64,000 bases of DNA from Nocardia sp. BMG51109 (GTDB lineage: Bacteria; Actinomycetota; Actinomycetes; Mycobacteriales; Mycobacteriaceae), in assembly GCF_000526215.1 (NCBI RefSeq), contig NZ_JAFQ01000004.1:4092001-4156000 (forward strand). The letters run 5' to 3'. The notes under the pieces were generated by a model. That model ran no database searches and was not told the origin of the DNA. It saw nothing but the letters and a program-made list of their open reading frames with translations. Positions 2,956-55,511 of the stretch are shown here, one piece after another; position 1 is the first letter of the stretch; every line of letters begins with the position of its first letter. The translations under genes were made by a program, and so were the position numbers.

Positions 2956-5900
2956 CCGAACACACGGACGAGCAGAAACTCCGCACTTACCTGCGGCGGG
3001 TGACCGCCGAGCTGCGCACGGCCAACCGCAGGGTGCGCGAACTGGAGGACAACGCCGCCGAGCCGTTGGCGATCGTCGGGATGAGCTGCCGGTACCCGGG
3101 CGGCGCCGATTCGCCGGAGCAACTGTGGGAGCTGGTAGCGGCGGGACGCGACGCGATGTCGCCGCTGCCGACCGATCGCGGCTGGGATCTCGAACGGCTC
3201 TACGATCCCGATCCCGAGCAACTGGGCACGCTGACCGCGCAACGCGGTGGATTCATCGACGGGGTAGGCGATTTCGACGCGGAGTTCTTCGGGATCAGCC
3301 CGCGTGAGGCGCTGGCCGTCGACCCCGCCCAGCGGTTGCTGCTGGAGACCGCGTGGGAAGCGCTGGAGGACGCGGGGATCGATCCGATCACGTTGCGCGG
3401 CAGCGATACCGGTGCCTTCATCGGGGCGGTGACCTCCGACTACGGCGGGGCGATGCCGCCGGAGTTGGAGGGATACCGCTTGACCGGCACCCAGGGCAGC
3501 GTGGTGTCGGGCCGGATCGCCTACAGCCTCGGACTGGAGGGGCCGGCCGTCACCGTGGACACCGCGTGCTCCTCGTCGCTGACGGCGCTGCACCTGGCAT
3601 CGCAGGCGCTGCGCTCGGGGGAGTGCTCGCTGGCACTGGTCGGCGGCGTCACCGTGCTCGCCGGGCCGTTTCTGTTCGTCGAGTTCAGTAGGCAGCGTGG
3701 TCTCGCGCCCGACGGCCGGTGCAAGGCGTACGCGGCGGCCGCGGATGGGACCGGGTTCTCCGATGGTGTGGGTCTTGTTGTGTTGGAGCGTCTTTCGGAT
3801 GCTCGGCGTAATGGTCATCAGGTGCTTGCGGTGGTGCGTGGGAGTGCGGTGAATCAGGATGGTGCGAGTAATGGTCTTACCGCGCCGAATGGTCCGTCGC
3901 AGGAGCGGGTGATCCGTGCCGCGCTGGCCAACGCGGGACTGAGTGCCGCCGAGGTCGACGCGGTGGAGGGGCATGGCACGGGCACCCAGCTCGGTGATCC
4001 GATCGAGGCGCGTGCGTTGCTGGCGACGTACGGGCGTGAGCGTACCGCCGGGCCGTTGCGGTTGGGGTCGATCAAGTCCAATATCGGCCACACCTCCGCG
4101 GCTGCGGGTATAGCCGGGGTGATCAAGATGGTGCAGGCGTTGCGGCACGAGGTGTTGCCCGCGACGCTGCACGCGAATGTGCCGTCGCCGCACGTGGATT
4201 GGGATTCCGGGCAGGTCGAGTTGTTGACCGAGCCGCAGGTGTGGCCGTCGAACGGGCGGCCGCGGCGGGCGGCGGTGTCGTCGTTCGGGATCAGTGGCAC
4301 GAATGCGCATGTGATCTTGGAGGAGGCTCCGGTGACGGGGTCTCTGGAGGGATCTGGGCCGACCGAAGCGGCTGCGTTGGTGAATGCTCCGGTCGAGGAG
4401 GTCGGCCTGCCGGTGTCGCGGTCGGTGGTGCCGGTGGAGGGGACTGTGCCGGTGCAGGCGGCTCCGGTGGTTGAGGGGTCTGTGCCGGTGGTGGTGTCGG
4501 GTCGGTCGGTGGCGGGGTTGCGGGGACAGGCGGCGCGGTTGCGGTCGTTTCTGGTTGGGCGGCCGGAGGTTTCGGTGCTGGATGTGGGGTGGTCGGCGGT
4601 ATCCACGCGGGCTCAGTTGGAGTATCGCGCCGTGGTGGTGGCGTCCGGTCGTGCGGAGTTGCTGGCGGGGCTGGCCGCGCTCGCGGAGGGTGAGCCGGTT
4701 TCGGGTGTGTCCGAGGGCGGCCCGGTGCCGGGGAAGACAGCGTTTCTGTTCACCGGTCAAGGAGCCCAGCGGGCCGGGATGGGTGTCGAACTGGCGCAGG
4801 CATTTCCGGTGTTTGCGTCCGCGTTGGATGAGGTGTGTGAGCACCTGGATCCGCGGGTGGGTCGTTCGGTGCGGGAATTGATGTCGGCGGAACCGGATTC
4901 GGTCGAAGCGGGTCTGCTGGACAAGACGGGATACACGCAGGTGGTGTTGTTCGCGGTCGAGGTGGCGTTGTTCCGGTTGCTGGAGTCGGTGGGTGTGCGG
5001 CCGGATTACATGATGGGTCATTCGGTGGGAGAGATCGCCGCCGCGCATGTGGCGGGTGTTTTGTCGTTGTCTGATGCGTGTGAGTTGGTGGTGGCGCGTG
5101 GCCGGTTGATGGGTGCGTTGCCGGTGGGGGGTGCGATGGTGGCGGTGGAGGCGACCGAGGGTGAGGTTGTGGAGTCGCTGGCGAGGTTTGCGGGCCGGTT
5201 GGATGTGGCGGCGGTGAACGGTCCCCGCGCGGTGGTGGTGTCGGGTGATGCGAACGCGATCGAGGAGTGGCTGCCCTTGTGGGAGGGCCGGAGGACGTCG
5301 CGGTTGCGGGTGAGTCATGCGTTTCATTCGTATTTGATGGAGCCGATGCTCGAGGAGTTCGAGCGGGTGGTGCGGGGTGTGGAGTTCGGTGTGGCGCGGG
5401 TTGCGGTGGTGTCGAACGTGTCTGGTGGGTTGGCGGGTGAGGAGATGGCTGATCCGGGGTATTGGGTGGGGCATGTGCGGCGGGCGGTGCGGTTCGGTGA
5501 CGGTGTGGACACGCTGTATGGGTTGGGTGTGCGCCGGTTTGTGGAGGTGGGTCCGGATGCGGTGTTGACGGCGATGGCGGGGCAGTCGCTGGAGGGTCGT
5601 GAGGATGTGTTGGTGGTGCCGGTGTTGCGGGCGCGGCAGTCCGAGCAGGAGGCGTTCGCGGGTGTTCTGGGTCGGTTGCATGTGGCTGGTGTGGGTGTGG
5701 ATTGGCCCGGGTTTTATGCGGGTTCGGGTGCGCAGCGGATCTCGTTGCCCACCTACGCATTCCAACGACAACGGTACTGGCTCGCGCCGAACAGTGGCTC
5801 CGGCGACGCCACGGCCGCGGGTATCGGCCGATTCGAGCATCCGCTGCTGGCCGCCGCGATCACCATCGGGGATCGTGACGAATGGGTGTTCACCGGCCGC

Positions 5901-8900
5901 CTGTCCACCGAAACGCAACCGTGGATCGCCGAACATCTGCTCCTGGGCACGATCGTTATGCCTGGCACGGGTCTGGTGGAGCTGGCATTGGCTGCGGGCC
6001 GGCAGGTCGGATGCCCGGTACTGGACGAATTGATCCTCGAGGCACCACTCCTGCTGGACGACAGTTCGGTACGGCAGGTACAGGTCACCGTCGGCGCGGC
6101 CGGCGAGGACGGCCGCCGCGAGGTAGCCGTCTACTCACGCCCGGGGGAAGGTGACGAGCACGACGTGACCTGTCATGCGCGTGGCATCCTCGGCGTCGAC
6201 CCGGACCCGGCCCTGGCCTGGCCGACGGAATGGCCACCCGCCGAGGCGGAACCGCTCGCCGTCGACGCGCTCTACGAGCGCCTCGGCGAGATCGGCTACG
6301 ACTACGGCCCCCTCTTCCAAGGGGTGCGGGCCGCGTGGCGTGACGGTGACCAGACCTATGCCGAGGTGGCCCTTCCCGACGACACCGGCGGTGGATTCGG
6401 TATCCACCCCGCGCTTTTCGATGCCGCGCTGCAGAGCGGCGTCATCCTCCTCACCGATCGCGGCGACGAACACCGAATGCCCTTCAGCTGGACCGGTGTA
6501 CAGCTCGACCGCCGGGGTGTGTCCCGGCTACGCGTGCGCGCCGTGGCGACCGGCGATTCCGCGCTCCGACTCGATGCTGTCGATGAGGCCGGGCAACCGG
6601 TGGTCTCGCTGCGGTCGATCGCGGTCCGGCCCGTCGAACAGGCAAAAATTGAAGGGGCGCAGCGTAATCTGCGCCCCCTGTATGTCGTCGGGTGGTCCGA
6701 GGTCGTTGCCGGGGGCGATCCGAAACGGATCGCGGTGCTCGGGGCGCAGATCGCTACCGGTGACCGCTACGCCGATCTCGATGCGCTCGAACGTGCGATG
6801 GCGGACGGGGCCGCGGCGCCCGAGGCCGTCGTCGCCGTCGTCGAGACGCCGGCGGCCGCCGGTACCGCCGACCGGACTCGGACGGTCACGGCCGGTGTCC
6901 TGGAGCTGCTACAGCGCTGGCTGGCCGGTTCGTGGCCCGCCGATACTCCGCTCGTGGTGGCAACTCGGCGAGCGGTCGCCCTCGACGGTGAGATCCCGGA
7001 TATCGCCCAGGCCGCGGTGTCGGGACTGGTGCGTAGTGCCCAGTCCGAACACCCGGGCAGGTTCCTGCTCGTCGACGTGGACGAGCAGGAACCCGGCTGG
7101 GCCGCGCTGATCGGTGCTGACGAGCCACAACTTGCGGTGCGGGCGGGACGGGTGCTGGCACCCCGCCTCGAGCGGGCCGACTCGACGGTGACCGCGCCGT
7201 TCCCGCTCGACCCCGACGGCACCGTGCTGATCACCGGTGGCGCCGGAGGTTTGGCTGCGGTGTTCGCCCGGCATCTCGTGCAGGCCCACGGGGCGCGGCG
7301 GCTCCTGCTGGTCAGCCGTCGCGGTACCGAAGCCGAGGGTGTCGACCAGTTGATCGCCGAGTTGACGACGCTGGGTGCCCGGATCCGTGTCGCCGCCTGC
7401 GATGTCGCCGATCGAGACCAGCTGGCGGCGCTGCTCGGCTCGCTGGACCGGCCGCTCACCGCGATCGTGCACGCGGCGGGGCTGCTCGACGACGGCCTCG
7501 TCGAATCGCTGACCCCCGCCCAGCTCGACCGGGTACTGCGCCCGAAACTCGATGCGGCGCTGCACCTACACGAGCTCACCGCCGACCTGGAGCTGTCGGC
7601 ATTCGTGCTGTTCTCCTCCGTCGCGGCGCTGCTCGGCGGCCCCGGGCAGGGCAACTACGCCGCTGCCAATGCCGCCCTGGATGCCCTTGCCGCACAACGC
7701 CATAGCGCCGGGCTGCCGGCAACCTCGCTGGCGTGGGGGCGGTGGGCCGAGACGGGCGGCATGACGGGCGCCCTCGACGAGGCCGATCTGGCACGGCTCG
7801 AACGCGCCGGCGTCGGTGCCCTGTCGACCGAGCTGGGGCTCGCGCTGTTCGACCAGGCACTGCGCTCGGGGTCGGCAGCGCTGGTGCCGGTGCACCTGGA
7901 GGCGGCCGCACTGCGTACCCAGGCGCGGAGCGGTCTGCTGCCGGCCCCGCTGCGTGGGCTCGTCCGGGTACCCGCCCGCCGCGCCGATGCGAGCGGGTCA
8001 CTGGCGCAGCGGCTTTCGGAGGTTCCGGAGGCCGATCGGGAACGTGTCGTCCTCGATCTGGTGCGGGCACAGGTTGCCGTCGTGCTCGGATATGCCGTCG
8101 CGAGTACCGTCGATACCGCTCGCGCGTTCAAGGATCTCGGCTTCGATTCCCTCGGTGCCGTCGAGCTGCGCAATCGGCTGGCCCAGTCCACCGGTGTGCG
8201 GCTGCCCGCCACGCTGGTCTTCGACCACCCGACGCCGGCGGCGGTCGCACGGCTGATCCTCGCCGAAGTCGGCGGCGCGGTGACCCGGTCGCCGAAGATC
8301 ACTCGGCACGGACGAACAGCGGCGGACGAGCCGTTGGCGATCGTCGGCATGAGCTGCCGCTACCCGGGTGGCGCGGACTCGCCCGAACAGCTGTGGGAAC
8401 TGGTCGCCGCGGGCCGCGACGCGGTGAGCGGACTTCCCGAGGACCGTGGCTGGGATGTGGAGCGGCTCTACGATCCGGATCCGGATCATGCGGGGACGGT
8501 GTACACGCGTGGTGGTGGTTTCCTGGAGCGGCCGGGTGATTTCGATGCCGAGTTCTTCGGGATCAGTCCGCGTGAGGCGCTGGCGATGGATCCGCAGCAG
8601 CGGCTGCTGCTCGAGGCGTCCTGGGAGGCGCTCGAGGATGCCGGCATCGACCCGAACTCGTTGCGCTCCACCGAGACCGGCGTCTTCACCGGCGTCGTGA
8701 CCACGGACTACGGTGGGCCGGGCTCGGCGGAGCTGGAAGGGTACCGGCTGACCGGCACCACGACGAGCGTCGCGTCGGGCCGGATCGCCTACACCTTCGG
8801 GCTGGAGGGGCCCACGTTGTCGGTGGACACGGCCTGCTCCTCGTCACTGGTCGCGCTGCATCTGGCGGCGGGGTCGCTGCGGTCGGGTGAGTGCTCGCTG

Positions 8901-11900
8901 GCCCTGGCCGGCGGCGTGACGTTGATGGCGGGGCCGTATCTGCTGACGGAGTTCAGCCGGCAGCGGGCGGTGTCGCCCGACGGCCGATGCAGGTCATACG
9001 CGGCCGGCGCGGACGGGACCGGATTCTCCGACGGTGTGGGTATGGTTGTGCTGGAGCGTCTTTCGGATGCGCGGCGCAACGGGCATGACGTGCTGGCGGT
9101 CGTGCGCGGGAGCGCGGTGAACCAGGACGGTGCGAGCAACGGTTTGACCGCGCCGAGCGGCCCGTCGCAGGAGCGGGTGATCCGCCAGGCCCTCGCCAAC
9201 GCGGGCCTGGGCGCCGCGGACGTCGATGCCGTCGAGGGACACGGGACGGGAACCAAGCTCGGCGATCCGATCGAGGCGCAGGCGCTGCTGGCCACCTACG
9301 GTCAGGAACGCGACAGCGGCCCGTTGCGGCTCGGCTCGATCAAGTCGAATATCGGGCACACCTCGGCGGCGGCCGGCGTGGCCGGTGTCATCAAGATGGT
9401 GCTCGCACTGCGGCACGGCATGCTGCCGCAGACCCTGCATGTGGATTCGCCGTCGCCGCACGTCGATTGGGATTCCGGAGCGGTGGCGCTGCTTACCGAG
9501 CCGCAGAAGTGGTCGCGGAACGAGCGGCCGCGTCGTGCGGGGATCTCGTCGTTCGGGGTCAGCGGCACCAACGCGCATCTGATCCTGGAGGAGGCGCCGG
9601 AACAGGAGCCGACCACGCGGGTCGCGGGTGAGGTCCCTTCGGTCGTACCGGTGTTGGTATCGGCGCGCGGCGAACAGGCGTTGCGGGCGCAGGCGGCGCG
9701 ACTGCGGTCGTATGTGCTTGCCCGGCCCGATATTTCGTTGCCGGATCTCGGTCTCTCCAGCGTGGCGACGCGGGCCCAGCTGGAGCATCGCGCGGCGGTG
9801 GTCGCGGCCGATCGGGACGACCTGCTGGCCGGATTGGCGGCCGTCGCGGCCGGAGAGCCCGCGGCGAACGCGGTCGAGGCCCGAACCCTCGGCAGCCGTG
9901 CGATTTTCGTGTTCCCCGGTCAGGGCGCGCAGTGGACCGGTATGGCGGTGGAGTTGCTCGATTCCGCCCCGGTCTTCGCCGACGAGATCGCGGCGTGCGA
10001 GGAGGCGTTGTCGGAGTTCGTGGAGTGGCGGCTGCGAGACGTGTTGCGCGGCGCCCCCGACGCTCCCTCGCTGGAGCGCGTGGACGTGGTGCAGCCCGCT
10101 CTGTTCGCGGTAATGGTCGCCCTGGCCCGGTTGTGGCGCTCCCTCGGTGTGGAACCGGTTGCGGTGGTCGGCCATTCGCAGGGTGAGATCGCGGCGGCCT
10201 GTGTCTCGGGCGCGCTGTCCCGGGCAGACGCCGCGCGGGTGGTGGCGCTGCGATCGCGCGCGATCGCCCGGCGGCTCGCGGGCTCGGGTGGGATGGCCTC
10301 CCTCGCGCTGCCGGTCGAGCGCGTCGAGGAATTGCTCGGAGCCTATGCCGGCCGGGTGTCGGTCGCCGCGGTGAACGGCCCCGCGGCCGTGGTGGTCTCG
10401 GGTGACCCGGACGCGATGGACGATCTGCTGCGCGGCTGCGAGCAGGCGGAGATCCGGGCTCGGCGGGTCGCGGTGGATTACGCCTCGCATTCGGCCCAGG
10501 TAGAGACCATCGAGCACGAACTGCTCGACGACCTGGGCCCGGTCGCACCGATGTCGAGTCGAATTCCGTTCTACTCGACCGTCGTCGGCGGATTCGTCGA
10601 CACCGCGACGCTGGATGCCGGGTACTGGTACCGCAACCTCCGTGGCCGAGTCGGATTCGAGCCGGCCGTGCGAGCGCTGCTCGACCAGGGCGCGACCTGC
10701 TTCGTGGAAATCTCCCCGCATCCGGTGCTGACCATGGCCGTCGAAGAGACGGCCGACGCCTGTGGCGCCGCCGAACGGACTGCCGTGCTCGCCTCGCTGC
10801 GCCGCGGCGAGGGCGGCCTCGCACGCTTCGCGCTCTCACTGGCCGAGGCGCACACCGTCGGCATACCCGTGGAGTGGCCGGCGTTGTACGCGGGCAGCGG
10901 CGCACGGAAGATCCCGCTGCCGACGTATGCGTTTCAGCGGCAACGGTTCTGGCTCTCCCCGGTCGCCGGGCCCGGCGATGCCACCGCGGCCGGACTCGGC
11001 CGGGTCGAACACCCGATCCTCGCGGCCGCGGTGCAGGTCGGCGATCGCGACGAGTGGCTGTTCACCGGACGGATATCGATCGCCGCGCAGCCGTGGACCC
11101 GCGATCACATGGTGTTCGGGCTCGTGCTCGTACCGGGTGTCGCGCTGGTCGAGCTGGCATCGGCGGCCGGTCGGGAGGCGGGCTGCCCGGTCGTGGACGA
11201 GTTGGTGATCGAAGCACCGCTGGTCCTCGAGGAGGACGCGGTCCGGCAGATCCAGGTCACGCTGGGCGCGGCCGACGCCGACGGACGTCGTGAGGTCGCG
11301 CTCTTCTCGCGTCCCGAGTCCGCCGGCGAGGAGCCGGGGGAGGCGACGTGTCACGGGCGCGGCCGGCTGGCCGCGACGACGGCACCGGCGGAGCCGTTCC
11401 CCGCGCAATGGCCACCGGCCGGGGCCGAAGAGATCACCGTCGACTCGGTCTACGCCAGGCTGGGTGCCTACGCGCACCTGACCGATCCGGATTTCGATTA
11501 CGGGCCCGCGTTCCGAGGCGTGCGCGCGGCCTGGTCGCTCGGCGATACCGTCTTCACCGAACTCGAGCTGCCGGAATCGGCCGGTGCCGCATCAGGGTTC
11601 GGCCTGCATCCGGCACTGTTCGATGCGGCGCTGCATGGTGGTCTCGGCAAGCTCTACCAGGGCGAATCTGGGCCGGGCGGACTGCCGTTCGCGTGGTCCG
11701 GGGTGCACTTGGAGCGCATCGGCCACACCCGGATCCGGGTACGAATCGGGCTGGCCGGCGACACCTCGCTGCGCCTCGACATCGCCACCGAGGACGGTCT
11801 GCCGGTCGCGAGCGTGCAGCGCCTCGATGTTCGTCCCGTGGATCAGGCACAGCTCGAGGCCGCGCGACGCAGCGGACAGCGTGCGCTGTTCCAGGTGGAC

Positions 11901-13709
11901 TGGGTCGCGGTCGCGCCGTCGCAGCGGCAGGCTCCGGTGGCGATCCTGGGCGAACTCACCGGTGTGGGACCGCATTTCGCGGATATCGAAGAGCTGGAGC
12001 GGTCGCTCGGTGACAGAAGGGCCGCCCCGGAAGCGGTCGTCGTCGGCATCGAGACGCCGGTCGGTGCCGATGACGGAGCCGCGGCCGCACGGGCGGTCGC
12101 CACGCGGGCGCTGGCACTGATGCAGCGCTGTATGTCCAGCGAATGGCTCACCGACACAAAGGTGTTCATCGTCACCGAGCGCGCGGCGGCGGTCGGCGCG
12201 GAAGCCCCCGACGTCGCGCAGGCCACGGTGTGGGGTCTGGTGCACAGTGCCCAGTCGGAACATCCGGGCCGCTTCCGGCTCGTCGACGTCGACGGTGCCG
12301 ACACCGCCCCGGACTGGGGCGCGCTGGTCGATCTGGACGAACCCCGGCTGGCGGTGCGGGAGGGGCGGGTGCTGGCTCCGCGGCTCGCCCGCGCGTCGGC
12401 GGAACCCGGTGCGGCCGCGCTGAATCCCGACGGGACGGTGTTGATCACCGGCGGAACGGGCGGTTTGGGCGCGTTGTTCGCCAAGCACCTCGTCGCGCGG
12501 TACGGCGTGCGGGATCTGGTGCTGGTGAGCCGTCGTGGTCCGGACGCGGCGGGTGCCGGCGAGCTGGTCGCCGAGCTGGCCGCGCTCGGCGCCCGAACCA
12601 GGGTCGCCGCCTGCGATGTCGCTGACCGCGATCAGCTCGCGCGGCTGCTGGAAACGCTCGAACACCCACTCACCGCGGTGATCCACGCGGCGGGTGTGCT
12701 CGACGACGGTCTGATCGAATCATTGACCCCCGATCGGCTGGCGGGGGTGCTGCGACCGAAACTCGATGCGGCGCTGCACCTGCACGAGCTCACCGCGGAG
12801 CTGGAGCTGTCGGCATTCGTGCTGTTCTCGTCGGTCGCGGCGCTGCTCGGCAGCCCCGGCCAGGGCAACTACGCGGCCGCCAACGCCGCGCTGGACGCCC
12901 TCGCGGCCCGGCGCCGCGCCACCGGGCTCCCCGCGACGTCGCTGGCCTGGGGACTGTGGGCCGACGCCACGGGGATGACCGGTGAGCTGGACACGCCGGA
13001 GCTCGCCCGGCTCGAACGGAGGGGAGCGAGCGCGCTGCCGACCGAGCTCGGACTCGAGCTGTTCGACCAAGCCCTCCGGCTCGACACGGCGATACAAGCC
13101 CCGGTGCGGCTGGACACGGCCGCATTGCGAGCTCAGGCACGGGCCGGCATGCTGCCCGCCTTGTTGCGCGGTCTGGTGCGAGTCTCGGTGCAGGACACCG
13201 AGTCCGGCGGCGGATCTCTGGCGCGGCACCTGGCCGGCGTCGCCGAGGCGGATCGGCCGAAGGTCGTGCTCGACCTCGTGCGGACGCAGGTGGCGGGTGT
13301 GCTCGGGCACGGCTCCGCCGCGGACATCGATCCGGATCGGGCCTTCCAGGCGATCGGATTCGACTCACTCGGCGCGGTCGAACTGCGCAACCGGCTCGGC
13401 CGCCTGTGTGGGGTGCGGTTGCCCGCGACACTCATTTTCGACCACCCGACACCGGAGGCCGTCGCCCGGCTACTTCTTGCCGAGATCGGCGGCGGCGCCG
13501 CGGAACCACCGATCGACCGGGAATTGACCAAGCTCGAGGACCTGCTGGCCGCGAGCACCGACGTCGAGAAGGAACGCGTGGCCGCCCGCCTGCGCGCGCT
13601 GCTCGCCACGACGACCGCGGGCGGCGAGCACACCAGCGCCCGGATCGAGGCGGCCGGCACGGCGGATGAGGTTTTCCAGCTGATCGATGCTGAGTTCGGC
13701 GAGGCATGA
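2952..13709 (+). CDS. Type I modular PKS, two modules (A: KS-AT-DH-KR-ACP; B: KS-AT-DH-KR-ACP)
   Basis: 3585 residues. An N-terminal coiled-coil docking head (about 1-35, core [13 protein letters not shown]) should bind the tail of the preceding PKS. Module A: KS with Cys206; AT with GHSVGE (Ser691) and HAFH, which predict malonyl-CoA; DH with His995 in HxxxGxxxxP and Asp in LFDAALQ; KR with LDD and Tyr1569; ACP Ser1733. Module B: KS from about 1793 with Cys1962; AT with GHSQGE (Ser2409) and YASH, which predict methylmalonyl-CoA; DH His2719; KR with LDD and Tyr3307; ACP Ser3472. No ER is present, because the KR structural half leads straight into the Rossmann half. Both modules should leave a trans double bond. 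The nucleotide loop of KR-A reads TGGAGGLAA, with Ala replacing the third Gly. The tail ends [11 protein letters not shown]. The start ATG sits in the upstream stop (ATGA), behind a gggag Shine-Dalgarno. Confidence 0.97.
8445..8616 (+). repeat. 172-bp identical block, module B copy (partner 25620-25791)
   Basis: Early KS-B, from cgtggctggg through ctgctcgagg, is identical by eye to early KS-E. B and E differ outside the block, and their AT types differ. Confidence 0.9.
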
Positions 13710-22700: not shown

Positions 22701-25375
22701 AACACCCGATGCTGACAGGCATTGTTCCGGTGGGTGATCGTGACGAGTGGTTGTTCACCGGCAGCCTGTCTACCGAAACCCAGTCGTGGACACAGGATCA
22801 CGTGGTGCTGGGTGTGACCATCGTGCCGGGTACCGCGCTGGTCGAGCTGGCGTTGGCCGCCGGACGCGAGGTCGCAAGTCCGGTCGTCGAGGAACTGGTG
22901 CTCGAGGCACCGCTGCTGCTCGATGCCGGAGCCACCCGCCAGGTGCAGGTCACCGTCGGCCAGGCCGATGGCGACGATCGCCGTGAGGTCGCGATCTATA
23001 CCCGACCCGAGGCCGGGGCGGATACCGAACCTGCGGAGATGACCTGCCATGCGCGCGGCGTACTGGCACCGGATCACGAACCGCTACGTGCCCGAGACAC
23101 CGAATGGCCGCCCGCCGGAGCCGAGCCCGCGTCGCCGGATGTGCTCTACGCGGGGATGGCCGATCTCGGATACGACTACGGCCCGATGTTCCAGGGCGTG
23201 CACGCGGTGTGGCGCGCCGGCGACGACGTCTATGCCGAAGTAGCGCTGCCCGACGACGCCGGCGGAGCCGGATGGGGTATCCATCCGGCACTGTTCGATG
23301 CCGCCATGCACGGCGGACTGTTGCAGCAGGGCTCCGAAGTCGCGGCGGTGCTGCCGTTCTCGTGGTCGGGCGTACGCCTGGGCACACCCGGGCTTTCCCG
23401 GGTCCGCGCGCGGATCAGCCCGGCGGACGGCACCGCGCTGCGCGTCGACATCACGAGCGAGCAGGGCGAGCCGGTATTGCGGATGGATCGACTCGACATG
23501 CGTCCGGTGGAACCGTCGCAGCTCACGAACGGTCGTCGCGCGACCCGGAATTCGCTGTTCGGGCTCGATTGGAGTCCTGTGACGGGCGCCGCCGCGCCGG
23601 TACGGATCGTGGTCCTCGGCGAACTCGCAGCCGAAGGCGAGCGGTTCGCCGATCTGGATGCGCTGGAGCGGGCGCTGGCCGAGGGCGGGCAGGCACCGGA
23701 CGCGGTGCTCCTCGCGTTCGACGACGTGCTTCAGGGCACCGATCTCGCCGCGGCCGTGCGGTTGACCACCGGCCGGGCACTCGAGCTGGTACAGCGCTGG
23801 CTGACCAGCGAATGGCTCACCGACACAAGGCTTGTCGTGGTCACGCGGCGTGCGATGGCCGTGGGTGGCGAGGCGCCGAGCGTGGCGATGGCGCCGGTTC
23901 CCGGATTGCTGCGCAGCGTCCAATCGGAACATCCGGGCCGGTTCCTGCTGGTCGACGCCGATGTCGACACGGCCGTCGACTGGGCCGCGATCCTCGGCGC
24001 CGACGAACCGCAGCTGGCGGTGCGAGCGGGACGGGTGCTGGCACCGCGGCTGGCCCGAGTAACGGCCGAACCTGTTGCGGCCCCGATGGATCCGAGTGGC
24101 ACGGTGTTGATCACCGGTGGTACCGGCGGTCTCGGTGCGCTGTTCGCCAGGCATCTGGCGCAGCGATACGGCGCCAAGAATCTGTTGTTGGTGAGCCGGC
24201 GGGGCCCGGCGGCAGACGGCGCCGACGCGCTGGTCGCCGACCTGGCGCTGCTGGGCGCCGAGGCGCGGGTCGCGGCGTGCGATGTCGCGGACCGCGACCA
24301 GCTCGAGCGACTGCTCGGCACACTGGAGCAACCACTGACGGCGGTCGTCCACGCGGCTGGCGTCCTCGACGACGGCCTTGTCGAATCGCTGACACCCGAA
24401 CGGCTGGACCGCGTGCTGCGCCCGAAAGTCGATGCGGCACTGCATCTACACGAATTGACCGCCGGGCTGGAGTTGTCGGCCTTCGTGTTGTTCTCCTCCA
24501 CGGCCGCGCTCCTGGGCAACCCGGGTCAGGCGAACTACGCCGCCGCCAACGCGACCCTCGACGCCCTTGCGGCCGTGCGCCGCGCCGAAGGGTCGGCTGC
24601 GACCGCGCTGGCCTGGGGTGTCTGGGCTGAAACGGGCGGCATGGCAGGCGAATTCGGTGCGGCCGAACTCGCCCGGCTGAAGCGCACCGGTATCGGCGCG
24701 ATGGACGCCGAACTCGGGCTCGAATTGTTCGACCTGGCCCTCGGGCTGGACGTTCCGTTGCTGGCGCCGGTGCGGCTCGACCAGGCGGCGCTCCAGGCGC
24801 AGGCACGCGCGGGCATGCTGCCCGCCCTGCTGCGCGGATTGGGCCGGGCCCGGCGCGCCGATTCCACGGGATCATTGGCACATCGGCTGGCGGGCGTCGC
24901 CGAGGCCGACCGCGAGCAGGTCGTGCTGGACCTGGTGCGTGGAGAGGTGGCTGCCGTGTTGGGGCATGCGTCGGCAGCCGCGATCGACCCGCAGCGAGCC
25001 TTCCAGGAGATCGGCTTCGACTCGCTCGCCGCGGTCGAACTGCGCAACCGGCTCGGCAAGAACACCGGGGTCCGATTGCCCGCGACGCTGGTCTTCGACC
25101 ATCCGACGCCGGCGGCGATCGTGCGGTTGCTGCTCACCGAGGTGGAGCCGAACGCCGTTCCCGAGATCCGGACGCGGTCGGCGGACGACGAGATTCGCGC
25201 CCTGCTCGCCGCCGTGCCGATCGACCGCCTGCGCCGGGCCGGGCTGCTGGAGACGCTGCGTGACCTCGCGAACGCGGATCCCGACGAGGACTCGTCGGAG
25301 AACGGGGACGCCGAGTCGATCGATGACATGGACGCCGACGCCCTGATCCGAATGGCACAGGAAGACATGGCATGA
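13706..25375 (+). CDS. Type I modular PKS, two modules (C: KS-AT-DH-ER-KR-ACP; D: KS-AT-DH-KR-ACP)
   Basis: 3889 residues. The docking head (about 1-43) contains [14 protein letters not shown]. Module C: KS Cys218; AT with GHSQGE (Ser665) and YASH (methylmalonyl); DH His975; ER about 1403-1717 with Tyr1455 in LGTYPDD, predicting a 2S methyl; KR with LDD and Tyr1874; ACP Ser2039. Module D: KS from about 2097 with Cys2267; AT with GHSVGE (Ser2728) and HAFH (malonyl); DH His3032; KR with LDD and Tyr3611; ACP Ser3773. Module C should add a fully reduced propionate and module D a trans alkene. The acidic tail ends with [13 protein letters not shown], a different docking type from the two upstream tails. 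The start overlaps the upstream stop (ATGA). A second in-frame ATG at 13724, behind a gagg motif, is an alternative start that would drop six residues. Confidence 0.97.
16838..16873 (+). repeat. 18-bp perfect in-frame tandem duplication in DH-C
   Basis: gaaggcggtggcgtcgag occurs twice in a row and encodes [12 protein letters not shown] in a surface loop of the module C dehydratase. None of the other DH domains has the insert. Confidence 0.95.
20621..21265 (+). repeat. 645-bp near-identical block, module D copy (partner 26136-26780)
   Basis: It covers the C-terminal third of KS-D, from ttcagtaggc to the end of the KS at gaggaggcg. Base-by-base reading against 26136-26780 gives one mismatch (20647 G versus 26162 C), although flanking KS sequence differs widely. 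This fits a recent gene conversion. Confidence 0.95.
21853..22014 (+). repeat. 162-bp identical block, AT-D active-site region (partner 27419-27580)
   Basis: Surrounds the GHSVGE active-site motif of the malonyl AT of module D and is identical by eye to module E. Confidence 0.85.
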
Positions 25376-25400
25376 GTACCTGCGACAACGAGGAATAGGC

Positions 25401-28400
25401 ATGGCCACCGAGAAGAACGACCTCGTCGAGGCGCTGCGCAGCTCGCTCAAGGAGACCGATCGGCTCCGGCAGCAGAACCGGCGGTTGCTCGCAGCGGCCA
25501 CCGAGCCGTTGGCGATTGTAGGTATGGGGTGCCGGTACCCGGGCGGGGTTTCCTCGCCGGACGAGTTGTGGAATCTGGTTGCGGGCGGGCGTGATGCGGT
25601 GTCGGGGTTGCCGACCGATCGTGGCTGGGATGTGGAGCGGCTCTACGATCCGGATCCGGATCATGCGGGGACGGTGTACACGCGTGGTGGTGGTTTCCTG
25701 GAGCGGCCGGGTGATTTCGATGCCGAGTTCTTCGGGATCAGTCCGCGTGAGGCGCTGGCGATGGATCCGCAGCAGCGGCTGCTGCTCGAGGTGGCGTGGG
25801 AGGCGCTGGAGGTCGCGGGCATTGATCCGATCTCGTTGCGCGGCAGCGATACCGGAGTCTTCTGTGGTGTCGGAGCCACCGACTACGCGACGGTGACCGG
25901 CGGTAGCCGGCCTCACGTGGAGGGCTTCCGCCTGACGGGAGCCGCGACGGCGGTGGTGTCGGGACGGCTGAGCTACACCTTCGGATTCGAGGGGCCGACG
26001 GTCTCGGTGGACACCGCGTGCTCGTCATCGCTGGTGGCGTTGCACATGGCGGCGCAGGCGCTGCGTTCGGGCGAATGCTCGATGGCGTTGGCCGGCGGTG
26101 TGACAGTGATGTCGAGTCCGTTCCTGCTGACCGAGTTCAGTAGGCAGCGTGGTCTGTCGCCCGACGGCCGGTGTAAGTCGTATGCGGCGGCCGCGGATGG
26201 GACCGGGTTCTCCGATGGTGTGGGTCTTGTTGTGTTGGAGCGTCTTTCGGATGCTCGGCGTAATGGTCATCAGGTGCTTGCGGTGGTGCGTGGGAGTGCG
26301 GTGAATCAGGATGGTGCGAGTAATGGGTTGACGGCGCCGAATGGTCCGTCGCAGGAGCGGGTGATCCGTGCCGCGCTGGCGAATGCGGGGCTGGGTCCGG
26401 GTGATGTGGATGCGGTGGAGGGTCACGGGACGGGGACGAGGCTGGGTGACCCGATCGAGGCGAAGGCGTTGCTGGCGACGTATGGGCGTGAGCGTACTGC
26501 GGGGCCGCTGTGGTTGGGGTCGATCAAGTCGAATATCGGGCATACGTCGACGGCGGCCGGTGTGGCGGGTGTGATCAAGATGGTGCAGGCGTTGCGGCAT
26601 GGGGTGTTGCCGGCGACGTTGCATGTGGATTCGCCGTCGCCGCATGTGGATTGGGGTTCGGGGGAGGTCGAGTTGTTGACCGAGGCGCGGGAGTGGTCGT
26701 CGAACGGCCATCCGCGCCGCGCCGGTATTTCGTCGTTCGGGGTGAGTGGCACGAATGCGCACGTGATTGTGGAGGAGGCGGCTGCTCTGACGGAGGGGAT
26801 CGGCGCGGCCGAGGCGGTTGTGCCCGTCGAAGGTAGTTCAGTGGTGGGGGGCGGTGCGCCGGTGTCGCGGTCGGTGGTGCCGGTGCAGGCGGCTCCGGTG
26901 GTTGAGGGGCCTGTGCCGGTGGTGGTGTCGGGTCGGTCGGCGGCGGGTTTGCGGGGGCAGGCGGCGCGGTTGCGGTCGTTTCTGGTTGGGCGGCCTGAGG
27001 TTTCGGTGTTGGATGTGGGCTGGTCGGGGGTGTCGACGCGGGCGCAGTTGGAGTATCGCGCTGGGGTGGTGGCGCCTGGGCGTGCGGAGTTGCTGGCGGG
27101 GTTGGCCGCGCTTGCGGAGGGTGAGCCTGGGGCGGGTGTGTTCGAGGGGGCTCCTGTTCCGGGGAAGACGGCGTTTCTGTTTACCGGTCAGGGTGCGCAG
27201 CGGGCCGGGATGGGTGTGGAGTTGGCGGGGGCGTTCCCGGTGTTCGCGTCCGCGTTGGATGAGGTGTGCGGGCACCTGGACCCACGGGTGGGTCGTTCGG
27301 TGCGGGAGTTGATGTCGGCGGAGGAAGGTTCGGCGGAGGCTGCCCTGTTGGACGCGACGGAGTTCACGCAGGTGGTGTTGTTCGCTGTTGAGGTGGCGTT
27401 GGTGCGGTTGCTGGAGTGGGTGGGTGTGCGGCCGGATTGTGTGGTGGGTCATTCGGTGGGGGAGATTGTGGCGGCGTATGTGGCGGGGGTGTTGTCACTC
27501 TCGGATGCGTGTGAGTTGGTGGTGGCGCGGGGCCGGTTGATGGGGGCGTTGCCCGCGACGGGTGCGATGGTGGCGGTGGAAGCCGGTGAGGGTGAGGTTG
27601 TGGAGTCTCTTACCCGGTTCGGTGGCCGGTTGGATATCGCGGCGGTGAATGGTCCTCGGGCGGTGGTCGTGTCGGGTGATGCGGACGCGATCGAGGAGTG
27701 GCTGCCGCGGTGGGAGGGCCGGAAGACGTCGCGGTTGCGGGTGAGTCATGCGTTCCACTCCCATCTGATGGAGCCGATGCTCGAGGAGTTCGAGGCGGTG
27801 GTGCGGGGTGTGGAGTTCGGTACGCCGCGGATGCCGGTGGTGTCGAACGGGTCGGGCCGACCGGCCGGCGAAGAGATGTGTGATCCGGGGTACTGGGTGC
27901 AGCACGCGCGGCGGGCGGTCCGGTTCGGTGACGGTATCGAGGCACTGTATGAGCTGGGTGTGCGGCGGTTTGTGGAGGTGGGTCCGGATGCGGTGTTGAC
28001 GGCGATGGCGGGTCAGTCGCTGGAGGATCGTGACGACGTTGTGGTGGTGCCGGTGTTGCGGTCACGCCAGTCCGAGCAGGAAGCGTTCGCAAGCGTTCTG
28101 GGCCGGTTACATGTTGCGGGTGTGGGGGTGGAGTGGCCGGCGTTCTACGCGGATACGGGTGCGCGGCGGATCTCTTTGCCTACGTATGCATTCCAACGAC
28201 AACGGTATTGGCTGGATGCCGTCGCACCGATGGGTACCGCCGCCGGTGTCGGGCTCGGTCATGTGGAACACCCGATTCTGGCCGCCTCGGCACCGGTCGG
28301 TGATCGTGACGAGTGGTTGTACACCGGCAGTCTGTCTACCGAAACCCAGTCGTGGACACAGGATCATGTGGTGCTGGGTGTGACCATCGTGCCGGGTACC

Positions 28401-31400
28401 GCGCTGGTCGAGCTGGCGTTGGCCGCCGGACGCGAGGTGGACACCCCGGTGCTGGACGAGTTGGTGCTCGAGGCGCCGCTCATCCTCGATGCGGGCGCGA
28501 CCCGCCACGTGCAGATCACGGTCGGCCAGGCCGAGGCCGACGGCCGTCGGGAGATTGCCGTGTACACCCGCCCGGAGGCGCGCGATGCCGATTCCCCCTC
28601 GGAATCCATTTGCCACGGGCGCGGTTGGCTTGCTCCCGAGGTGGATTCGACCGTGACCTGGTGGGAGCCCACCGAATGGCCGCCCGCCGATGCGGAATCG
28701 GTCGCCGTGGACGATTTCTATTCGCGCACTGCCGATCTCGGCTACGACTACGGTCCGACATTCCAGGGTATTCGAGCGGCGTGGCGAGCAGGCGATGAGC
28801 TCTACGCCGAGGTCGCGCTGCCCGATGACACCGGCGGTGAACCCTTCGGTCTGCACCCGGCCCTCTTCGACGCCGCCATCCACGGCGGTCTGCTCGGACA
28901 GGACACCGAAACGTCCGCACTGCTGCCGTTCTCGTGGTCCGGTGTGCGACTCGTGAATCCGGGCCGATCCCGGGTACGCGTGCGGATCGTCGCCGCCGGG
29001 GACTCGGCCGTGCGCGCCGATATCGTGACCGAACTCGGCGAGCCGGTTGCCGCGGTGACCAGGCTCGATATGCGCCCGATCGATTCGGCGCAACTCGGGG
29101 CCGCGCAACGAGCCGGCGGGCAGCATGCGCTGTTCCGGGTCGAGTGGACCGAGGTGACCGCCGCCGAGCAGCGGCAGATGCGCGTCACGCACCTGGACGC
29201 GGCCACGGCGGCCGGCCTCGACGCGCTGCGACAGGGGCTCGCCGACGACGGGGAAACTCCGGATATCGTTGTTGCCGAGGTTGTTTCACCCGAGGACGCC
29301 GACACCGTCGCGATGTCCCACACCGTGACCGAGCAGACGCTCGAACTGCTCCAGAGCTGGTTGACCGGTGAATGGCCCGCCGAGACGAGGCTTGTCGTCG
29401 CGACTCGTGCCGCGGTGGCCGTGCACGACGAACGGCCGGATCTCGTCCAGGCACCGATCTGGGGATTGGTGCGCAGCGCGCAATCCGAACATCCCGGCCG
29501 AGTCCTGCTCGCCGATGTCGACAGTGACAGCACGCCGGACTGGGGCGCACTGCTCGAGCTCGACGAGCCGCAGCTGGCGGTGCGAGAGGGCCGGGTGCTC
29601 GCACCACGGCTCGTCCGCGCACCGGCCCAGCCTGCCGCGACACCGTTGGACCCGGAAGGAACCGTCCTGATCACCGGCGGGACAGGTGGTTTGGGCGCGC
29701 TGTTCGCCGAACACCTGGCCGAACACCACGGCGCACGACATCTGCTCCTCGTGAGTCGTCGCGGTCCGGAAGCGGAAGGGGTGGACGAGCTGGTCGCGGC
29801 GCTCGAATCGTCGGGCGCGACGGCGCAAGTCGTGGCCTGTGACGTGTCGGACCGGGAACAGCTTGCGACGCTGCTGAACTCGATGGACCGGCCGCTGACG
29901 GCCGTGGTGCACGCGGCGGGCGTACTCGAGGACGGTGTGATCGAATCACTGACCGCGCGGCAACTGCAGCGGGTGGCCGGCCCGAAACTTGATGCGGCAC
30001 TGCACCTGCACGAACTCACCGCCGATCTCGAGCTGTCGGCATTCGTGTTGTTTTCCTCGGTGGCGGCGTTGATCGGCAGTGCGGGACAAGGGGCTTATGC
30101 GGCCGCCAATGCCGGATTGGACGCGTTGGCGGCGAAGCGGCGTGCCGAGGGCCGGGTGGCCGGTTCGCTGGCCTGGGGCCTGTGGGACCACACCCGCGGC
30201 ATCGCGGGCCGCCTCGGCGAGACGGAGCTGGCACGGCTCGAGCGGATGGGCGTCCGGGCGCTCTCGACCGAGTCCGGGCGCGAACTGTTCGACCGGGCCG
30301 TCGGTGCCGAGCCGGCGCTGCTGGCCCCGGTGGATCTCGACCTCGCCGTCCTGCGGACCCATTCCCGAACGGGCATGCTGCCGCCCTTGCTTCGCGGCCT
30401 GGTCCGGACGCCCACCCGGCGCGGGCGGACCGGCGGTTCGCTGGCACGGCGGTTGGCCGACGTGCCGGAGTCCGATCGTGAGCAGGTGGTTGTCGAACTG
30501 GTGCGGGAGCAGGTCGCGGCCGTGCTCGGGCATGCGTCGGCGGCGTCGGTCGACCCGGAACGCGCCTTCCAGGACCTGGGACTGGACTCGTTGAGCGCGG
30601 TCGAATTGCGAAACCGGCTCACCAACCTCGCCGGGCTCAGACTGCCCGCGACCTTGGTCTTCGACCATCCGACGCCGACGGCGCTCGCTCGTCTGCTACT
30701 CACCGAAATCACCGGCGCCGTGGACGTGTCGCGCCCGGAACCGCGGCAGCGGCGGGCCGCGGCCACCGAGCCGTTGGCGATCGTCGGGATGGGGTGCCGA
30801 TATCCGGGTGGGATCACGTCGCCGGACGAGTTGTGGGATCTGGTCGCCGGCGGGCGTGATGCGGTGTCGGGGTTGCCTACCGATCGCGGCTGGGATATCG
30901 AGCGACTCTACGACCCGGACCCGGCTAGGACCGGTACCTTCTACACGCGCGGTGCCGGGTTCGTCGAGGGCGTCGCCGATTTCGATGCCGAGTTCTTCGG
31001 GATCAGCCCGCGTGAGGCATTGGGCATGGATCCGCAGCAACGGTTACTGCTGGAGACGGCGTGGGAGGCGTTCGAAGACGCCGGGATCGATCCGACCTCG
31101 TTGCGCGGCACCGACACAGGAGTTTTCTGCGGTGTCGGCGCGTCGGACTACGGAACCACGGCCACCAGTGATCTGGCCCAGGTGGAGGGTTTCCGCCTCA
31201 CCGGCGTCAGCACCAGCGTCGCCTCCGGCCGCCTTGCCTACAGTTTCGGGTTGGAAGGTCCGGCGGTCTCGGTGGATACCGCGTGCTCGTCGTCGGCGGT
31301 GGCGTTGCACCTGGCCGTGCAGGCGCTGCGGTCCGGCGAGTGCTCGATGGCACTGGCGGGCGGCGCGACCCTGATGACCGGACCGTTCGTGCTGACGGAG

Positions 31401-34400
31401 TTCAGTAGGCAGCGTGGTCTGTCACCGGACGGCCGGTGTAAGGCGTACGCGGAGGCCGCGGACGGCACCGGGTTTTCGGATGGTGTGGGTCTTGTTGTGT
31501 TGGAGCGTCTTTCGGATGCTCGGCGTCATGGTCATCGGGTGCTTGCGGTGGTGCGTGGGAGTGCGGTGAATCAGGATGGTGCGAGTAATGGTTTGACGGC
31601 GCCGAATGGTCCGTCGCAGGAGCGGGTGATCCGGGGGGCGCTGGCGAATGCGGGACTGAGCGCCGCCGATGTGGATGCGGTCGAGGGGCACGGGACCGGG
31701 ACGAAGCTCGGTGATCCGATCGAGGCGCAGGCGTTGCTGGCGACGTATGGCCGGGACCGGGTCGATGGTCCGTTGTGGTTGGGGTCGATCAAGTCGAACA
31801 TCGGACATTCACAGGCAGCGTCGGGGATCGCCGGTGTGATCAAGATGGTGCAGGCGTTGCGGCATGGGGTGTTGCCGGCGACATTGCATGTGGATTCGCC
31901 GTCGCCGCATGTGGATTGGGGTTCGGGGGAGGTCGAGTTGTTGACCGAGCCGCGGGAGTGGGTGCGTAATGGTCGGCCGCGGCGGGCGGCGGTGTCGTCG
32001 TTCGGCGTGAGTGGGACGAATGCGCATGTCGTCCTGGAGGAGGCTTCGGCCGAGGCGGCGGTGTCGGCGGCGGGCTCTGCGCCGGTGGAAATGTCCGTCC
32101 TGCGCGACCAACAGGACGAGCAGGTGATGCCGGTGGTGGTGTCGGGTCGGTCGGTGGCGGGTTTGCGGGGGCAGGCGGCGCGGTTGCGGTCCTATCTGGT
32201 GGCACGGCCGGAGGTTTCGCCGCTGGATGTGGGCTGGTCGGAAGTGTCCACACGAGCACAGCTGGAATACCGCGCCGCGGTGGTGGCGTCCGGACGTGCG
32301 GAACTGCTGGCGGGGCTGGCCGCGGTGGCGGGCGGCGAACCGGCGCCGAGCGTGTTCGAGGGCGCCCCGGTGGCAGGGAAGACGGCGTTGTTGTTCACCG
32401 GTCAGGGCGCCCAACGTGCCGGGATGGGTGCCGAACTGGCGCAAGCGTTCCCGGTCTTTTCATCCTCGCTGGATGAGGTGTGTCAACACCTGGACATCCG
32501 GATGGGTCGTTCGGTGCGGGAGTTGCTGTCGGCGGAGCCGAATTCGGCAGCGGCTGCGTTGCTGGACAAGACCGAGTTCACGCAGGTGGTGGTGTTCGCG
32601 GTCGAGGTGGCGTTGTCCCGGTTATTGGAATCGGTGGGTATCCGGCCGGACTATGTCATGGGGCATTCGGTGGGCGAGATCGTGGCGGCACATGTCGCCG
32701 GTGTTCTGTCGCTGTCGGATGCGTGTGAGTTGGTGGTGGCGCGGGGCCGGTTGATGGGGGCGTTGCCGGCGACGGGCGCGATGGTGGCTGTGGAGGCCGG
32801 TGAGAGTGAGGTGGTGGAATCGCTGGCACGGTTCGGCGGCCGGTTGGATGTGGCGGCGGTGAATGGCCCTCGGGCGGTGGTCGTCTCGGGCGACGGGGAA
32901 GCGATGGAGGAGTGGCTGCCGTTGTGGCAGGGCCGGAAGACGTCGCGGTTGCGGGTCAGTCATGCGTTTCATTCGTATTTGATGGAGCCGATGCTCGCCG
33001 AGTTCGAGCGGGTGGTACAGCGTTTGCGGCTGAACGCGCCGCAGATACCCGTGGTGTCGAACGTGTCCGGCCGGCCGGCGGGACAACAGCTGACCGATCC
33101 CGGGTATTGGGTGCAGCACGCGCGGCGGGCGGTCCGGTTCGGTGACGGTATCGAGGCACTGTATGAGCTGGGTGTGCGGCGGTTTGTGGAGGTGGGTCCG
33201 GATGCGGTGTTGACGGCGATGGCGGGTCAGTCGCTGGAGGATCGTGACGACGTTGTGGTGGTGCCGGTGTTGCGGTCACGCCAGTCCGAGCAGGAAGCGT
33301 TCGCAAGCGTTCTGGGCCGGTTGCATGTGGCTGGTGTGGGGGTGGATTGGCCGGCGTTTTATGCGGGTTCGGGTGCGCAGCGGATTTCCTTGCCCACCTA
33401 CGCGTTCCAACGACAGCGGTACTGGCTGACCCCTGGCACCTCAGGTGACGTCGGCGCGGCCGGGCTCGGCCGGATCGAACACCCGATGCTGACAGGCATT
33501 GTTCCGGTGGGTGATCGTGACGAGTGGCTGTTCACGGGCAGTGTGTCCACCGAAACCCATTCGTGGACACAGGATCACGTGGTGCTGGGTGTGACCATCG
33601 TGCCGGGCACCGCGCTGGTCGAACTGGCGCTGTCCGCCGGTGAGCGAGTCGACTGCCCGGTGCTGGAGGAGCTGGTGCTGGCGGCGCCGCTCATCCTGGA
33701 AGAGGGTGTGGCCAGGCAGATTCAGGTCACGATCGGTCAGCCGAGTGACGACCGCCGCGAGATCGCGATCTACACGCGGCAGGAGACCGCCGCGGATCGA
33801 CTCCCGGAGTCGATCTGTCACGCGCGCGGATGGCTTGTGCAGAAGGCGAATTCGGCCGAGTCACCATGGCTGCCGACCGAATGGCCGCCGGCGGGCGCGG
33901 AACCAGTCGCCCTGGACGACTTCTACGCCGACGCCGCCGATCTCGGCTATGACTACGGCCCGGCGTTCCAGGCGGTGCGCGGGGCGTGGCGGGTCGGCAG
34001 CGAGCTCTACGCCGAGGTGGCGCTGCCCGGTGGCACCGGCGGCGAAGCCTTCGGACTGCACCCGGCGGTATTCGACGCCGCGCTACACCGTGGCCTGCTG
34101 GAACGAGTGCCGGGTGCGCCGGTGACCCTGCCGTTCTCGTGGTCGGGTGTCCAGCTGCACGCGCCGGGGTTCTCCGGGGTGCGTTCGCGCGTCGTTCCAC
34201 TCGGCGAATCCGCCTTCCGGGTCGATATCGCCGGCGCGGACGGCTCTCCCGTACTCACCATGGAGCGGCTCGGGTTCCGTCCGGTGGAGCAGGCCCAACT
34301 GGAACGGGGGCGGCAGAGGGCGTCGCAATCCCTGTTCCAGATCGACTGGGTGCCGGTGGCGACTGGTGCCGGTGCGCGGGCAAGTGTCGCGGTTCTGGGT

Positions 34401-44067: not shown

Positions 44068-44336
44068 GGTTCCATAGTCGCACGACCTAGATCGGGGCGC
44101 TCGTCGGCGAAACCCGCCCGTAACGGCTGCTCTCGCGGGCGCCGAACGCTCCGGCGTTGCCGTTGCGTTCAATACCCGGCCTATCGGCCGGTCGATCATG
44201 CCTGTATGCGCGTGTTCTCGGTAACGGCTGCCACACCCGGCCGATGCGGTGTCACCGTATCTGGTCGTGTGCCCGGCAGATCTTGCCTACAGAGCCTTTT
44301 CTTTGTAGGCGGAGATGTCTGGGAGGTCTGGAGCTG
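44068..44336. promoter_or_regulatory. Divergent control region, AraC paralogue 2 / loading PKS
   Basis: 269 non-coding bases hold the promoters for the regulator (leftward) and the PKS gene (rightward). An 11-base direct repeat, gtaacggctgc, occurs at 44120-44130 and 44221-44231, about ten helical turns apart, which suits paired AraC-type sites. The right end has a hairpin (listed separately) and a gggagg Shine-Dalgarno at 44321-44326, 10 bases before the ATG at 44337. Confidence 0.5.
44285..44310 (+). promoter_or_regulatory. Leader stem-loop upstream of loading PKS gene
   Basis: The arms gcctacagag and ctttgtaggc pair over 10 positions (one G-T pair) around a 6-base loop, cctttt. The element ends about 10 bases before the Shine-Dalgarno of the PKS gene at 44337. 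It could be an RNA leader hairpin or a DNA palindrome for a regulator. No long T tract follows, so it is not a standard terminator. Confidence 0.45.
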
Positions 44337-52421: not shown

Positions 52422-52431
52422 TCGGAAGAAT

Positions 52432-53589: not shown

Positions 53590-53772
53590 TCAGCAGACCT
53601 GCGACAGTTGTGGCAGAAACTTCTCAGCCTCTCAGTCCACAGTCCGTACCGAGAGATCTACCTACATGTGTTATTATCGCGGCGTGCGCTCGGGCGTGCC
53701 GGGGAAGGAATGGGGGGATATGTTGGTCCGTTCTGTTCGAGATGAAGTATCGAGACCCTGTCATCGATTCGG

Positions 53773-54528: not shown

Positions 54529-54539
54529 TCCGCTGCCAC

Positions 54540-54558
54540 CGGCCGGCCAAACCGGCCG
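54540..54558 (+). terminator. Possible hairpin terminator after response regulator
   Basis: A 7-base GC stem (cggccgg / ccggccg) with loop ccaaa starts 12 bases after the response-regulator stop, and a gtttt tract lies some 13 bases further on. This is compatible with termination before the 300-base gap to the sigma gene. Confidence 0.45.
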
Positions 54559-54867
54559 ACGGCGGATTCCGTTTTGTCAAAGGTAGATGAATTTCTCGTT
54601 TCCACACGGTCGGCTGGTGCGTGTCCCAGCCGACCATGGGTCGTTTCGCTGCGTCCGGGATGATCGGGATGATACTATCCGAGTGGATATCGGCCGCGTG
54701 CCGTTCGTCCCGGTAAATCATTCCGATTGACGATACCCGAAGCGACGGACTCGTTCACTGCACCTTTCGATACATGGGTAGTACTCCTTTTGTGAGATTA
54801 CGTGGCGCGTATCTCGAGCAATAGCCTGAAGCTCGGTAACACATTCGCGGACAGCAAAGGTCGTGCC

Positions 54868-55509: not shown

Positions 55510-55511
55510 CC

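Follow-up and report, generated by a model that had tools for sequence, protein, structure and literature searches.

Genetic repeats of intense nucleotide skews (GRINS) were described in 2021 and are known here through parts of later papers (PMC9899208, PMC10394414, PMC11907408) as repeats of about 1-2 kb within one actinobacterial cis-AT polyketide synthase (PKS), located around acyltransferase (AT) domains, with more than 80% identity, strong GC and TA skew and signs of gene conversion. In the sections of these papers used here, GRINS are also tied to AT diversification (PMC11907408) and placed, less often, in cyanobacteria and firmicutes (PMC10394414). In this study, we analyzed a window of 64,000 nucleotides from Nocardia sp. 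BMG51109 (contig NZ_JAFQ01000004.1), which contains most of one cis-AT type I PKS, and found that islands of unusual codon usage in its modules A, D, E and F are GRINS, a kind already described. The object itself does not differ; what is added is the form of the bias, which purely favors keto bases (G, T) over amino bases (C, A), and its polarity relative to replication, two points that deserve specialist attention. To our knowledge, how GRINS arise is an open question. The keto-over-amino bias and its replication polarity contradict readings based on foreign codons or simple codon selection, argue against deamination acting alone and direct attention to a single enzyme that can be tested.

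Two other familiar processes share features with these islands. As in natural exchange of PKS ATs by recombination between ketosynthase (KS) and AT and in the post-AT linker, the exchanged block stops at the post-AT motif, and the N-terminal half of the KS (KS-N) and the DH of module A retain a separate history; unlike in such exchange, a malonyl-type AT of module A was replaced by another malonyl-type AT and specificity was unchanged. As in GC-biased gene conversion and leading-strand skew, a directional base bias is linked to conversion or replication, whereas here GC content is nearly untouched and a strong keto-over-amino bias is limited to repeats.

Island borders were determined by a maximum-scoring-segment scan over synonymous sites, with expected keto counts taken from the other parts of the cluster. 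Keto-ending codons occupied 509 of 609 synonymous sites in module A (314 expected, z 16.5), 522 of 611 in D (314 expected, z 17.6), 648 of 794 in E (400 expected, z 18.5) and 465 of 605 in F (315 expected, z 12.9). These values bear out an earlier note on this DNA, which had described G- and T-ending codons replacing the usual ones in the four modules and their absence from B and C; the scan found no comparable segment in the latter two (best log-likelihood ratios 14.6 and 6.8, versus 88-187 for the islands). The note had placed the switch near TTCAGTAGGCAGCG, which occurs in exactly four copies (3684, 20621, 26136 and 31401). This held for A, D and F, whose islands start 39 bp downstream, 42 bp upstream and 18 bp upstream of it, respectively, and failed for E, whose island starts 573 bp upstream. 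TTCAGTAGGCAGCG is ordinary KS coding DNA, with near-copies in module B (8952, 2 mismatches) and module C (14474, 1 mismatch). The change back was correctly placed at the post-AT motif LPTYAFQR.R, which starts at 5745 (A), 22610 (D), 28176 (E) and 33390 (F); the island of E ends inside LPTYAFQR and that of F 6 bases 5′ of it. The ATs carry GHSVG and HAFH in A, D, E and F, and GHSQG and YASH in B and C, motifs that we take to indicate malonyl and methylmalonyl specificity, respectively.

A plot of third-position GC content (GC3), proposed in the note as a test, proved nearly blind to the islands. Among the windows listed, GC3 was 0.73-0.82 in the core of A (4302-5801), 0.74-0.83 in F (31551-33500) and 0.74-0.94 outside those island windows. 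GC3 moves little, since C gives way to G and A to T; therefore, strand skew, which does reveal the islands, is the right measure. Among 40 ATs of the genome (the strongest of 54 matches, excluding 2383494-2384420 and weaker or partial ones), third-position GC skew exceeded 0.5 only in those of A, D, E and F; the next-highest values (0.29-0.35) belonged to four GHSQG ATs in a minus-strand cluster near 8.15-8.18 Mb.

Assignment to GRINS followed the methods section of PMC9899208. All four modules had stretches of at least 500 bp that share more than 80% identity with another segment of the PKS. The eight qualifying stretches were 780-1380 bp long, with mean identity of 0.87-0.96 (ungapped, in place of the paper's pairwise alignment), GC skew of 0.20-0.41 and TA skew of 0.21-0.41, whereas duplicated KS stretches of B and C had skews below the GRINS level. 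Under the stricter wording found in part of PMC10394414 (both skews above 25%), A, D and E stood at 0.40-0.41 in their main stretches, the first stretches of A (0.20/0.21) and F (0.30/0.21) fell below, and TA skew was 0.25 in the first stretch of E and the second of F. Protein recoding was also evident: 39 replacement sites included 26 with keto gain, 5 with keto loss and 8 neutral changes.

Most of the change in the islands was at silent sites. Four-fold sites were composed of G 0.69, C 0.12, T 0.16 and A 0.03 inside and G 0.46, C 0.39, T 0.07 and A 0.07 outside, a composition that rules out coding-strand deamination (C to T, A to G) as the sole cause. At two-fold pyrimidine sites, T rose from 28% to 64%, and the leucine TTG:CTN ratio shifted from 113:742 to 124:116. 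Expressed as log odds versus background, the four keto/amino contrasts were 1.56 (G/C), 1.74 (T/A), 1.95 (T/C) and 1.35 (G/A), and the within-class contrasts were -0.39 (G/T) and -0.21 (C/A). The cleanest case was a related cluster, G209, in which the four keto/amino contrasts were alike (1.98, 2.05, 2.04 and 1.98, in the same order) and the two within-class contrasts small (-0.07 and 0.01); the log odds of L043 were a mirror image of the keto bias.

The same law was observed in wider surveys, whose sources were non-random (found by similarity to the window's AT or thioesterase, or chosen by strand). Four-fold GC skew beyond 0.5 was found in 32 of 1037 windows (69 loci), of which 25 were keto, 7 amino and none purine/pyrimidine; reading frames in this set were loosely chosen; the sign coupling is the same whichever strand is read, and the sign counts vary with it. 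A strict survey, in which PKS homology was required, yielded 61 islands in 24 of 64 sources, and the TA sign was the same as the GC sign in 59, opposite in one and zero in one. For 179 islands picked on GC skew alone, TA skew had the same sign in 175, the opposite sign in one and was zero in three. Thus, the bias is keto over amino, nearly GC-neutral, and occurs in both signs. Confinement of islands to malonyl modules is true of the window's cluster and not in general: strict-survey islands over an AT motif comprised 11 HAFH and 4 YASH, with neither motif inside 15 others, and KS, ER, KR and DH were also affected.

The keto-rich strand runs with the replication fork. Positions of dnaA were scattered in the 12 genomes examined, as in circular chromosomes. 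In 10 genomes of the genus, including that of the window, fork direction and keto-rich strand agreed in 42 of 43 islands, all except one in L012, a test that is confounded because every island-bearing gene there is also on the leading strand. In Streptomyces violaceusniger (G500), dnaA is at 6.00 Mb of contig C1, so that L041, where the islands are negative, is a gene on the lagging strand. The rule that sign follows the fork was stated before 20 PKS stretches of this genome were taken, and a second prediction was made for its contig C2; both were largely borne out. Leading-strand genes of the 20 stretches had 68 keto and 2 amino islands, and lagging-strand genes had 0 and 9; on the unplaced contig C2, keto:amino counts were 35:0 for plus-strand and 0:3 for minus-strand genes.

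For all strict islands with known origin, keto:amino totals were 129:3 on the leading and 0:9 on the lagging strand (p 5e-12 by island, although islands of one cluster are non-independent and some were split at the borders of the stretches or counted in overlapping frames). Counted by hand per cluster, without three mixed leading ones, the totals were 20:0 and 0:2 (p 0.004), or 26:0 and 0:3 (p 0.0003) if the plus strand of C2 is assumed to be leading. Looser islands gave 198:10 and 2:21, the window's genome contributing 0:6 and its kin 0:2 to the latter; this set contains some weak islands with very few A/T sites and mixed TA sign, lists one L106 row (3913-4263) that is a second, overlapping frame, and omits L012, L007 and, near the point opposite dnaA, L010, L017, L020 and L146. 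The lagging-strand PKS genes searched, 78,006 bp in the window's genome and 87,555 bp in its kin (the latter largely genes with a single module), yielded no strict island. A coding-strand or R-loop origin of the sign is contradicted by the negative islands in lagging-strand genes. By an unsystematic count, multi-module PKS genes in the surveyed complete genomes looked mostly leading-strand. Many Streptomyces PKS plasmids were also found, for which the search results gave no replication direction. Literature titles and the beginnings of abstracts, not covering the original GRINS paper, included none linking GRINS with mismatch repair, NucS with biased conversion or PKS skew with the leading strand.

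To trace the KS-C/AT block (from the C-terminal half of the KS to the AT), we compared three related assembly lines, G009 (same genus), G150 (Streptomyces sp. NBC_01214) and G209 (another genus of the same family); a first scan of genome contigs with the ACP-thioesterase end as query detected no relative. Each related cluster contains a loading module, M1, an ER-bearing M2, a malonyl-type M3 and M4, and module A occupies the M3 position. In trees of 31 modules (25 for DH; support given as bootstrap/SH-aLRT), KS-N and DH of module A grouped with the same-position modules of the three other clusters (95/96 and 100/100), whereas its KS-C/linker and AT grouped with those of D, E and F (98/94 and 99/98). 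Approximately unbiased (AU) tests, on clades chosen after the trees were viewed, rejected A with its counterparts for AT (p 6e-60) and an A-D-E-F clade for DH (p 9e-6) and KS-N (p 8e-4); with KS-C/linker by itself, A with its counterparts was not rejected (p 0.097). DNA identity between A and D was 77% in KS-N, 87% in KS-C, 88% in AT and 65% in DH. The separate domain trees proposed in the note thus disclosed conflicting topologies within module A, the gene-conversion sign expected of GRINS, and upheld its claim that the block spread between modules by homologous recombination. Identity of the KS C-halves of D and E (20647-20946 and 26162-26461) rounds to 100%, which points to very recent conversion. 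In addition, D, E and F share DH ancestry (100/99) and E and F share KS-N ancestry (99/94), indicating that part of the set arose via module duplication.

The four island ATs fell into one clade with unskewed GHSVG ATs of G150, G209 and G009 (98/94); they are native, within the lineage's own malonyl-type clade. The strict survey found no island in G150 or G009. In G209, the ATs had no island, and the KR of each of the last two modules held one (third-position GC 0.90, TA 1.00). These KRs (45355-46392 and 51495-52457 of L075-L078, joined and reverse-complemented) are identical, with nearly pure G/T third positions; both modules carry an ER, and an ER-KR conversion may have supplied that of the last module. 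The earlier note had also proposed that the exchange altered extender choice. Because the M3-position module is HAFH-type in all four clusters, the extender of module A is unchanged and was already malonyl-type before the exchange. The N-terminal docking sequence of module E is that of M6 modules (judged by eye); two of the three relatives, G209 and G009, have a malonyl-type (HAFH) M6, and G150 has a methylmalonyl-type one. No clear counterpart exists for D or F.

Probably, then, the GRINS of this cluster are a native KS-C/AT block that was homogenized by conversion, and partly by module duplication, and recoded in place to a keto-rich state aligned with the fork. Several observations weigh against this view. 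Within-class shifts of 0.4-0.9 set L055, L047 and the negative L012 island apart from a pure keto law. All strict lagging-strand islands are from two clusters of one genome, G500: one of the nine was known in L041 before the prediction, six more are in the same cluster and two are at 8.36 Mb. Two leading-strand clusters of that genome (4.52 and 4.59 Mb) have one amino island each, and L012 (7.00 Mb in the window's genome) has one keto and one amino island (4243-5673 and 9106-10296). Homogenization also occurs without intense skew: four methylmalonyl-type ATs of G150 (2325627, 2337335, 2342867 and 2349351; L060-L062) are nearly identical (branches 0-0.013), with GC skew of 0.15-0.18 and TA skew of 0.30-0.34. 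The L012 islands are about 0.48 Mb from the point opposite dnaA.

How keto bases accumulate is a separate question. The mechanism we propose, tentatively and as one that is itself unlikely, is that conversion tracts of fixed polarity at the fork pass a filter against keto-keto mismatches, for which NucS is the best candidate. NucS is an actinobacterial mismatch endonuclease that, in the portion of PMC11551767 consulted, rejects only G-G, G-T and T-T mismatches, with lagging-strand oligonucleotide data; according to part of PMC8228993, recombination at 90% identity rises 10-fold in its absence. Single strands copied from one module would pair with a sister module on its lagging-strand template. 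Any keto/amino difference between the copies would then mispair as keto-keto or as amino-amino, depending on which strands come together, and NucS would destroy the former (G-G, G-T, T-T) and ignore the latter (C-C, A-A, A-C). If conversion strands have the polarity of the lagging nascent strand, amino-amino pairings would survive, so that the template strand, which runs with the fork, would gain G and T in each round and the reverse would be barred; this is the direction observed. On the same doubtful footing, GRINS would be the trace left by a mismatch-repair ratchet acting at the replication fork.

Such a ratchet predicts similar change in all four substitution classes, little change in GC and a fork-aligned keto excess irrespective of gene direction, all of which were seen. 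It also predicts restriction to repeated modules and actinobacterial enrichment, the latter in agreement with part of PMC10394414. NucS_C was present in all six genomes examined, including that of the window (G000), which lacks MutS_V; MutS_V was found in one of the six (G009). A strong AT match was detected in only 4 of 185 gammaproteobacterial genomes. Cyanobacteria and firmicutes use MutSL, not NucS; MutSL chiefly overlooks C-C. Occurrence of GRINS in these two phyla, reported in part of PMC10394414, therefore counts against NucS as the sole route. Mutation-accumulation studies, as given in part of PMC11551767, also speak against the proposal, with little effect of NucS on transversions. 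If the NucS reading is true, mismatch repair shapes the enzyme domains of antibiotic assembly lines, and it becomes predictable which modules exchange, in what direction, and where natural cut points fall.

A replication-strand mutation bias, in which the leading strand gains G and T and conversion turnover makes this intense without any mismatch filter, is a serious possibility, though still an improbable one. It would account for island sign following the fork and for the mild leading-strand keto excess outside islands in the window's genome (keto fraction 0.530 leading versus 0.485 lagging) and its genus kin (0.546 versus 0.482). However, G500, with the strongest polarity, has no such excess (0.499 versus 0.520), and a deamination-type bias would act on transitions, yet four-fold pyrimidines fell from 0.46 to 0.28, with C replaced mostly by G. 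We doubt rather more that the islands reflect selection for recombination-prone DNA, whereby keto-rich repeats convert more because RecA favors GT-rich single strands of the TGG type. According to PMC3763553, TGG repeats give the most stable RecA filaments, and the keto-rich strand, as the presumed lagging template, would be accessible in single-stranded form; but such selection offers a reason for keeping keto-rich DNA and no means of making it, does not require both keto classes to behave alike, and is at odds with G150, where homogenization is strong and skew is not intense. Selection on codon usage or for weak RNA or DNA folding appears very improbable: silent sites do hold most of the change, but homologous domains on the lagging strand carry the opposite codon set, replacement sites are biased likewise, and a purine/pyrimidine skew would cut pairing equally, yet none of the 32 extreme windows has it. 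The earlier note's own explanation, a KS-end/AT cassette with foreign codon habits that was acquired a single time, spread by recombination and altered the choice of extender, suits the shared, sharply bordered block and the single A-D-E-F AT clade but is scarcely credible, given that this clade nests among unskewed native ATs, that the module A counterparts are all malonyl-type, and that elsewhere islands lie in other domains (in G209, two KRs and not ATs) or are mirror-imaged in line with replication direction.

Coordinates of the features are listed in the table.

Table. Features of the PKS locus, in window coordinates
Feature	Position	Strand	Basis or remark
Module A keto-rich island (GRINS), KS C-half to post-AT linker	3723..5744	+	segment scan, z 16.5
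Module D keto-rich island (GRINS)	20579..22609	+	segment scan, z 17.6
Module E keto-rich island (GRINS), extending into KS N-half	25563..28187	+	segment scan, z 18.5
Module F keto-rich island (GRINS), weakest of the four	31383..33383	+	segment scan, z 12.9
Module A GRINS stretches	3541-4320, 4441-5820	+	
Module D GRINS, two stretches	within 20491-22680	+	
Module E GRINS stretches	25981-26820, 26851-28230	+	
Module F GRINS stretches	31231-32040, 32101-33450	+	
Module B duplicated KS stretch (control), skew below GRINS	8911..9540	+	mean GC skew 0.13, TA -0.01
Module C duplicated KS stretch (control), skew below GRINS	14371..15090	+	mean GC skew 0.11, TA -0.01
End of module 2	1-2955		
PKS gene: module A (KS-AT-DH-KR-ACP) and module B	2952..13709	+	Pfam, domain map
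PKS gene: module C (with ER) and module D	13706..25375	+	Pfam, domain map
PKS gene: modules E and F, thioesterase	25401..36812	+	Pfam, domain map
PKS gene: loading module and module 1, without strong island	44157..52421	+	Pfam, skew table
Acyl-CoA dehydrogenase gene	52432-53589		within the low-GC part of the window

Transporter and P450 genes lie between the PKS gene ending at 36812 and that starting at 44157. Past the loading-module gene, GC decreases to about 0.60-0.63 within 52000-56000.

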